Source: Methanomassiliicoccus sp.
GTDB lineage: Archaea; Thermoplasmatota; Thermoplasmata; Methanomassiliicoccales; Methanomassiliicoccaceae
Reading direction: 5' to 3'
NCBI GenBank assembly: GCA_012719175.1
Contig: JAAYAX010000005.1
Coordinates: 186,001-250,000 of the forward strand
DNA length: 64,000 bases
In this document: piece by piece, positions 41,640-43,320 of the stretch
Position numbering within the stretch: position 1 is the stretch's first letter
Layout: the number at the start of each line of letters is the position of its first letter
Translations under genes and position numbers: made by a program
The notes under the pieces: model-generated
The model's database searches: none
The model's input: only the letters and a program-made list of their open reading frames with translations
What the model was told of the DNA's origin: nothing

Positions 41640-41661
41640 ACCTCATCACATGTTGGCGGCG

Positions 41662-42906
41662 ATGATTCAGAGGCCCCGGGGGACCCGCGATTTCGGTCCT
41701 GAGGAGATGGAAAAAAGGCGCTCTCTGGAGAGCAGGATGCGGCAGGAAGCGGCCTTGTTCGGATTCCGTGAGGTCGCGACACCGATCTTCGAGCATACCG
41801 AGCTTTTCACCATCAAGTCTGGCCCTAACGTCGTGGAGGAGATATACGCCTTCACGGACAAGGGAGGTCGGGACATTTCGTTGCGCCCGGAGCTGACAGC
41901 ACCGGTCATGCGCTTCTACGTCAATGAACTTACCAATTACCCGCGACCCCTCAAGATGTTCTACTTCGGCCAGTGCTTCCGCTACGAGCGTCCGCAGTCA
42001 GGCCGGTTCAGAGAGTTCTACCAGTTCGGTGCCGAGCTCATAGGAAACCCCGGACCGGAGAGCGATGCCGAGGTCATCGCTCTGGCCGCCTCGATAATGA
42101 GGCGGGTGGGGCTCAAGGACTACCACATCCGGATTGGCCACATAGGCGTCCTCCGGGGGCTTCTGGCCAGCTCAGGGGTGGAAGGGGCCTCGGCAGCGCC
42201 CATCCTCCAGAAACTGGACAAGAAGGAGTATGAGGAGGCATCGGCACGTATGGCCGAGGCCGATATATCCGCCGAGGAGGCGGAGAGGATAATCGAGATC
42301 ACCAAGACCTCGGGTCCCAGGGATGTATTGGACAAGATCCAGGGGGAGGCCAGGGACCATCTCCTGGAGGTCTTCAAGATATTATCCTACTACGGGTTCA
42401 ACAATGTGCAGGTGGACCTGGGGGTCGTCCGCGGCCTAGATTACTACACAGGGATGGTGTTCGAGATGGATGCCCCTGTCCTGGGCGCGGAGAAGCAGAT
42501 ATGCGGCGGAGGATCGTATTCCCTGACAGAGCTTTTCGGTGGGGAGAGGACCTTCTCCACGGGTTTCGGGATTGGCTTCGACCGCACGCTCCTGGCGCTG
42601 GAGAGGGAGGGCTACCAGGCCCCGTTCCATGTCATTGACGCTTTCGTGATACCGGTAACCCCCTCAATGAAGGAGGAGGCTTTCCAGATAGCGGCCCAGC
42701 TGCGGAGGGAAGGTGTACCGACGGAGATCGACCTAATGGGCCGAAGCCTCTCCAAGAACTTCAAGCACGCCGCCTCCCTGAACGCCCGCAAGGTCATAAT
42801 TGTGGGGGAGAAGGAGCTGGCCCAGGGAGCCGTGGCCATAAGGGACATGTCATCTGGGGATCAGAGGTTGGTCAGGAAGGAAGACCTGAGGTCAGAGTTC
42901 CAGTAG
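41662..42906 (+). CDS. hisS: Histidyl-tRNA synthetase
   Basis: Charges tRNA-His. Class II enzyme of about 414 residues: motif 1 region IQRPRGTRDFGPEEM, motif 2 FRYERPQSGRFREFYQFG, the HisA box VVRGLDYYTGMVFE and motif 3 GFGIGFDRTLLAL, then the anticodon-binding domain. An in-frame ATG lies four codons upstream (41650), but a TATA box at 41633-41639 puts transcription initiation at about 41660, which favours ATG 41662 and a leaderless mRNA. Confidence 0.96.
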   Translation: MIQRPRGTRDFGPEEMEKRRSLESRMRQEAALFGFREVATPIFEHTELFTIKSGPNVVEEIYAFTDKGGRDISLRPELTAPVMRFYVNELTNYPRPLKMFYFGQCFRYERPQSGRFREFYQFGAELIGNPGPESDAEVIALAASIMRRVGLKDYHIRIGHIGVLRGLLASSGVEGASAAPILQKLDKKEYEEASARMAEADISAEEAERIIEITKTSGPRDVLDKIQGEARDHLLEVFKILSYYGFNNVQVDLGVVRGLDYYTGMVFEMDAPVLGAEKQICGGGSYSLTELFGGERTFSTGFGIGFDRTLLALEREGYQAPFHVIDAFVIPVTPSMKEEAFQIAAQLRREGVPTEIDLMGRSLSKNFKHAASLNARKVIIVGEKELAQGAVAIRDMSSGDQRLVRKEDLRSEFQ

Positions 42907-42913
42907 ATTGAAA

Positions 42914-42995
42914 AGTGCCCGGGACCGGCGCATGTGGGGATTCGGAGGAAAAACGACTGTTCAGGAGGAGAGTTGAGCAACCGACCCCGGGCACT
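42914..42995 (-). ncRNA. Candidate small RNA with 15-bp stem and anti-Shine-Dalgarno loop
   Basis: The arms AGTGCCCGGG (42914-42923) and CCCGGGCACT (42986-42995) are perfectly complementary. On the minus-strand transcript the stem extends by GUCGG/CCGGU through two G-U pairs; on the plus strand these would be A-C mismatches, so the minus strand is favoured. A TATA box (TTATATA, 43019-43025) lies 24-30 bp before the predicted first base at 42995, and a short T run follows the stem. The 52-nt pyrimidine-rich loop holds CUCCUCC and CCUCC, both complementary to Shine-Dalgarno GGAGG. No known family fits. A bidirectional terminator between hisS and dodecin is the alternative. Confidence 0.45.
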
Positions 42996-43018
42996 AAAAA
43001 TATCTAATATAGCTCTTC

Positions 43019-43025
43019 TATATAA
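43019..43025 (-). promoter_or_regulatory. TATA box of the candidate small RNA
   Basis: TTATATA on the minus strand with an A-rich stretch (AAAAC) just upstream that could act as BRE. Its spacing of 24-30 bp to base 42995 is canonical. Confidence 0.5.
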
Positions 43026-43104: not shown

Positions 43105-43320
43105 TTAGTCTTCTGTCTCTACATCGAAGTAAATTCGCATTAGTGCTCGGTATTCCACGATCCTGTCATCCTTCACCTTGCACTCGGTCTCCACCATCCT
43201 TGCCCATCGTATCCCGCGCACGGTCTTTGCGGCCACTTCGATCGCGTTCTGGGCGGCCTCATCAAAGCTCGAGGAGGATATGCCCACGACCTCGATGATT
43301 TTCTGAACCATATCCATCAC
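43105..43320 (-). CDS. Dodecin, flavin-binding protein
   Basis: A 71-residue protein (69-70 with a later ATG) with the dodecin pattern VQKIIEVVGISSSSFDEAAQNAI followed by VRGIRWARMVE and a terminal strand IVEYRALMRIYFDVE. Dodecins form hollow dodecamers that store flavin. The Trp in GIRWARMV is the residue that stacks on the flavin. Gene is single; the candidate small RNA lies downstream on the same strand but has its own promoter. Confidence 0.93.
   Translation of the reverse strand: MMDMVQKIIEVVGISSSSFDEAAQNAIEVAAKTVRGIRWARMVETECKVKDDRIVEYRALMRIYFDVETED

Follow-up and report, generated by a model that had tools for sequence, protein, structure and literature searches.

Just beyond hisS in the 64,000-nt stretch of DNA analysed here (the window) lies what is, almost certainly, a conserved, structured and independently transcribed RNA gene. 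From the single locus, the preliminary description of this DNA had proposed an RNA gene on the minus strand, served by a promoter of its own; homologues, their TATA-like boxes and the G-U pairs of their stems now back that proposal. The observation holds up and extends further than first described: on the evidence of sequence comparison, the RNA family is ancient within the archaeal class Thermoplasmata.

Table 1. Features of the hisS-linked RNA locus (window coordinates)
Feature	Position	Strand	Basis or remark
Candidate small RNA, hisS-linked copy	42914-42995	-	Homologues detected with DNA queries and with covariance models
Predicted RNA ends	5' about 42995-42998; 3' in T run, about 42910-42913	-	Inferred from TATA distance and stem
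TATA box TTATATA, inside CTTATATAGAAG	43019-43025	-	Putative own promoter of candidate RNA
Terminal stem, 5' arm, 15 bp	42981-42995	-	Compensatory changes
Terminal stem, 3' arm	42914-42928	-	Compensatory changes
Loop motif A, CUCAACUCUCCUCCU	42963-42977	-	Near-invariant, alignment A1; core CUCCUCC at 42964-42970
Loop motif B, UUUUUCCUCCGAAUCCCCAC	42934-42953	-	Near-invariant; cores CCUCC at 42944-42948 and UCCCC at 42936-42940
hisS, histidyl-tRNA synthetase	41650-42906	+	Pfam PF13393, E 1e-61; convergent with RNA; synteny
Dodecin gene, outside RNA, upstream on same strand	43105-43320	-	Pfam PF07311, E 2.2e-21

Every element of the initial account can be read directly from the sequence at its stated coordinates. 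Perfect 10-bp arms (AGTGCCCGGG, 42914-42923, and CCCGGGCACT, 42986-42995) stand 62 nt apart and, on the minus strand only, are extended by G-U pairs to a 15-bp helix that the plus strand lacks, enclosing a loop of 52 nt (42929-42980). The loop contains both CUCCUCC and a second CCUCC, and the TATA box is positioned 24-30 bp upstream of 42995. The T run claimed to follow the stem is present at its position, but consists of merely four T (GGGCACTTTTC). Nevertheless, the hairpin alone is not significant, despite its low folding energy on both strands (z of -3.1 for minus and -3.9 for plus), because repeat counts fall within chance expectation: the window has 4 close-spaced 10-bp inverted repeats, whereas its shuffled counterparts average 5.9, and about 4 15-bp helices allowing G-U occur per shuffled window. 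Since the inverted repeat is unremarkable in itself, the case for an RNA rests on comparison with other genomes.

When the 136-bp region was used as a DNA query against 41 related genomes, 16 matched, including all seven genomes of the genus (its own among them) and 14 of the 15 of the taxonomic family. The alignment comprises three blocks, namely the TATA box in a conserved setting, a stem of variable sequence and two near-invariant loop segments (CUCAACUCUCCUCCU and UUUUCCUCCGAAUCCCCAC), such that the loop is better conserved than the stem. In most relatives of the family the TATA region reads TTATATAGAAG or, in the majority, TTTATATAGAAG. More widely, a TATA-like stretch of 8 nt precedes the stem in the 70 homologues, as a rule by 24-35 nt, and the gene at the 5' side of the hisS-linked RNA varies among relatives (dodecin in the window). 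Both the intergenic position and the promoter are thus those of an independent gene.

A covariance-model search of related genomes, the check proposed in the preliminary description, returned homologues in which the stem is kept and compensated and the CCUCC loops are conserved. In an alignment of 17 sequences the stem is paired in 96.9% of cells and 8 of the 15 pairs have changed on both sides, and none of 500 shuffles reached these stem-pairing values. Extending the comparison to 76 model matches, a set that includes six rows that are weak opposite-strand matches, gave both-side changes at 14/15 pairs (167 such cells, compared with 45 in shuffles); the figure for a cleaned set of 61 sequences was 13/15. 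Sliding the partner by one base abolished the covariation signal each time. The shuffle counts ignore relatedness, but common descent alone is an unlikely cause because many pairs and pair types change. The clearest case is genome G007, of the same family (L228:1578-1661; G007:C1:233077-233160), where the whole stem has been replaced while the loops ACUUUUCCUCCUAAGC and AAUCCCCAC are kept, providing a natural test of structure versus sequence.

The same homologues identify the transcribed strand. Read as minus-strand RNA, the stems of the 70 contain 142 G-U pairs in addition to 1069 Watson-Crick pairs (1211 in total), and since these G-U pairs would be A-C mismatches in a plus-strand transcript, the minus strand is taken to be the RNA. 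Consistent with this, the TATA-like box sits upstream of the minus-strand RNA, and no T run follows the stem on the plus strand. A plus-strand RNA with a GGA-rich loop would fold well, but we noticed no conserved plus-strand promoter, and such an RNA is at odds with the G-U pairs. A small protein was rejected because homologue lengths differ by non-multiples of three.

The conserved loop sequences are predicted to be largely single stranded, with mean unpaired probabilities of 0.84 for the UCCUCC core, 0.91 for the UCCCC core and, averaged over the entire loop, 0.72. Each core is found in 68 of the 70 homologues. Two relatives, L096 and L099 (family f3, genus g6), have lost CCUCC and retained AAUCCCC, a point that counts against Shine-Dalgarno masking. 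In some divergent members (e.g. L089, L097 and L116) a small hairpin inside the loop carries UCCUCC at its tip, and these inner hairpins differ in stem sequence, so that a changed stem presents the same UCCUCC core.

Covariance model R1 matched 40 of 147 genomes in the order Methanomassiliicoccales and 39 of 250 in the class; a later model, R2, built from 61 homologues, raised the number in the order to 50/147. In a phylum-wide sample the R2 matches were confined to Thermoplasmata, save one marginal match, and in a scan of a named genome collection the supported hits belonged to Methanomassiliicoccales, Sysuiplasma and other Thermoplasmata. Pattern matches in Brockarchaeota, bacteria, one viral contig and others received no support from the models as members of the family. 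The viral contig (IMGVR_UViG_3300029922_001130, L223:5168-5244) contains a hairpin of the form GGGCGCUCAA...UUGAGCGCCC, closed around a CUUUCCUCCUUUC loop, as a weak model match (E 0.06), perhaps by chance or as a viral mimic. Most genomes of family f2 of the order have no detectable copy, although such absences are soft because the multi-genome searches used strict filters. Where present, the RNA occurs in one or two copies per genome.

Comparison of neighbours over 59 loci revealed two genomic sites. At 39 the RNA lies at most 141 nt upstream of the gene for the archaeal CCA-adding enzyme (cca, identified by its Pfam domains), on the same strand and in several orders; this is probably the older site. 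At 18 loci, all in Methanomassiliicoccales and including that of the window, hisS is the convergent neighbour, its stop codon adjoining the RNA in nearly all. Several genomes carry both. The window genome has no credible second copy, the one weak match (E 0.4, L186) lacking the loops, and its region upstream of cca (L187:1101-1500), where most relatives carry the RNA, is empty; it therefore appears to have lost the cca-linked copy.

The loop cores suggest a function at ribosome-binding sites. We sampled about 464 kb of the genome (the window plus twenty 20-kb stretches), choosing starts regardless of Shine-Dalgarno sequences. In the interval 15-10 nt before the leftmost ATG, GGAGG peaks at 20 against about 3 per bin and GGGGA at 7 against about 1; because both are enriched there, the complements of the two cores are Shine-Dalgarno elements in this genome. 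TATA-like sites in the same sample are most frequent between -40 and -30, where leaderless genes should have them; the start-site peaks thus bear out the earlier claim of a genome mixing Shine-Dalgarno-led genes with likely leaderless ones. Predicted pairing with the RNA was slightly better at start regions than in coding regions (mean -14.2 vs -13.2 kcal/mol). However, when the flanks of motif A were shuffled and CUCCUCCU kept, pairing with start regions was no weaker than for the real motif (192 vs 208), and conservation of CUCAAC and CGAAUCCCCACC is therefore not explained by Shine-Dalgarno pairing. Indeed, loop conservation runs longer than anti-Shine-Dalgarno pairing requires, and these long invariant flanks would be compatible with a partner such as a protein or the ribosome.

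A single mRNA target with long complementarity in the genome itself was rejected (83 matches vs 81 in the control). Among 25 relatives there was no recurrent extended target, nearly all close matches being the RNA's own copies, and the sole near match elsewhere, in G135, was antisense inside a coding region. In most relatives the complement of motif B, GGTGGGGATT, outnumbers its reverse, an excess to which the RNA's own copies contribute part. The 16S 3' end of this genome reads GGAUCACCUCCU, and pairing with the 3' part of 16S was no better than that of shuffled motifs.

These results are consistent with a model whereby leftward transcription from the TATA promoter would yield a non-coding RNA of about 82-90 nt, closed by a terminal stem of 15-18 bp that keeps a large loop open. 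Two C-rich stretches, around UCCUCC and UCCCC, would be left single stranded in this loop and could pair with the G-rich Shine-Dalgarno sites (GGAGG, GGGGA) of several mRNAs, blocking ribosome binding and so turning down translation of some genes. Gene, strand, promoter, stem and conserved unpaired loops follow from the comparison of sequences, whereas expression of the RNA, its pairing with mRNAs and their repression are what we infer. Of the original proposal, a minus-strand regulator of Shine-Dalgarno-led mRNAs, the RNA gene, the selected stem and the conserved CCUCC loops have stood; the motif flanks gave no gain in pairing with start regions. Masking of multiple Shine-Dalgarno sites is nonetheless the best single explanation, leading the field with about an even chance of being correct, and it is favoured because bacterial RNAs share the design and Methanosarcina mazei offers an archaeal precedent.

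A close bacterial parallel is the alpha-r14 or 'cuckoo' sRNAs (NfeR1) of alphaproteobacteria, with ultraconserved unpaired C-rich anti-Shine-Dalgarno motifs on variable stems (PMC10746234). Both designs combine conserved unpaired C-rich motifs with freely varying stem sequence. However, alpha-r14 has three separate hairpins with CCUCCUCCC, whereas the Thermoplasmata RNA has one long terminal stem and one large loop with two different motifs; alpha-r14 is bacterial, and sequence homology is not expected. Membership of that family was rejected, given the single closing stem and the motif CUCCUCCU or UUUCCUCCU, and the likeness is at most an analogy. LhrC, RsaE and FsrA of Gram-positive bacteria are UCCC-motif sRNAs, and the UCCC motifs of LhrC bind Shine-Dalgarno sites (PMC4132741). 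They are alike in having several redundant unpaired motifs of UCCC type, but have other folds, smaller conserved motifs and experimentally shown targets. In archaea, the intergenic sRNA154 and sRNA41 of M. mazei are reported to mask ribosome-binding sites; sRNA154, reported to be conserved in Methanosarcina and to form two stem-loops, carries an anti-RBS sequence in one loop (PMC5867862). The earlier claim of an unreported kind of archaeal RNA was therefore too strong. The Thermoplasmata family differs from them in spanning a class.

Known RNA families gave no match. At gathering score Rfam 15 identified only tRNAs in the window, and searches of five loci returned nothing at E up to 1. A C/D or H/ACA guide RNA was rejected, as the aligned homologues had neither a conserved RUGAUGA/CUGA pair nor an unpaired ACA tail (by eye), and there was no Rfam match. 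In the open-access literature searched we found no account of the family. The idea of such a function is not new, but the family, the range of genomes it covers and a design in which one clamp stem presents two different C-rich segments look new.

To our knowledge, few archaeal small RNAs are conserved beyond the genus and hardly any has a known mechanism. A class-wide RNA that combines a clear promoter with a compensated stem and loops that hardly vary has strong claims to be a regulator of importance, and would allow tests of how Shine-Dalgarno-led mRNAs are controlled in archaea that also use leaderless ones. The covariance model is ready for use on existing Methanomassiliicoccales RNA-seq.

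Several other readings have to be set against Shine-Dalgarno masking. The loop segments might bind a protein or contact the ribosome rather than act as mRNA seeds, with the stem as a closing clamp, in a housekeeping RNA-protein particle. The near-invariant segments CUCAACUYUCCUCCU and AAUCCCCAC are longer than a Shine-Dalgarno complement, the flanks give no help in mRNA pairing, no long complementary target was found and genomes carry just one or two copies, all of which would suit a particle. Set against this, the two most conserved cores complement enriched Shine-Dalgarno sequences, bacterial anti-Shine-Dalgarno sRNAs likewise have ultraconserved loops and the neighbourhood suggests no protein partner; we regard a particle as possible, though rather unlikely. 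Alternatively, the RNA could be a cis-acting leader regulating cca, with the hisS-linked copies as transposed descendants. The proximity of 39/59 loci to cca, on the same strand in several orders, speaks for this. But the hisS-linked copies, the window's included, have no downstream same-strand gene and yet keep the same loops and promoter, and the RNA has its own TATA at both sites. Moreover, inspection by eye places a separate TATA-like sequence about 25-40 nt ahead of the start codon of many cca genes, which makes it less likely that the RNA is just a cca leader. We consider a leader function very unlikely.

A transcription terminator, or a chance hairpin, ending hisS would account for a strong hairpin on either strand that starts a few bases past the hisS stop codon and for a repeat within chance expectation. 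It is contradicted by the conserved loop and promoter. Read in the direction of hisS, the stem runs into A rather than T, the G-U pairs exist for the other strand only, conservation is higher in the loop than in the stem, and homologues occur elsewhere, upstream of cca. A scan for intrinsic terminators found none here, the loop being 52 nt and the T run lying only opposite to the hisS strand, and this explanation is very improbable indeed. More speculatively, the family may be an undescribed core RNA of Thermoplasmata that predates the split of several orders, either serving as a decoy for the 16S anti-Shine-Dalgarno end in general or belonging to a ribosome-linked particle. It would then set how translation is divided between Shine-Dalgarno-led and leaderless mRNAs, instead of controlling a few target genes; we think this unlikely.

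Finally, we noted that the bases between the TATA box and the RNA start (AGAAGGGCAGAATTAGG) are also conserved at loci of family f1 (e.g. L006, L010-L012 and L014). This conservation exceeds what a plain archaeal promoter would need, and possibly marks a regulator site.
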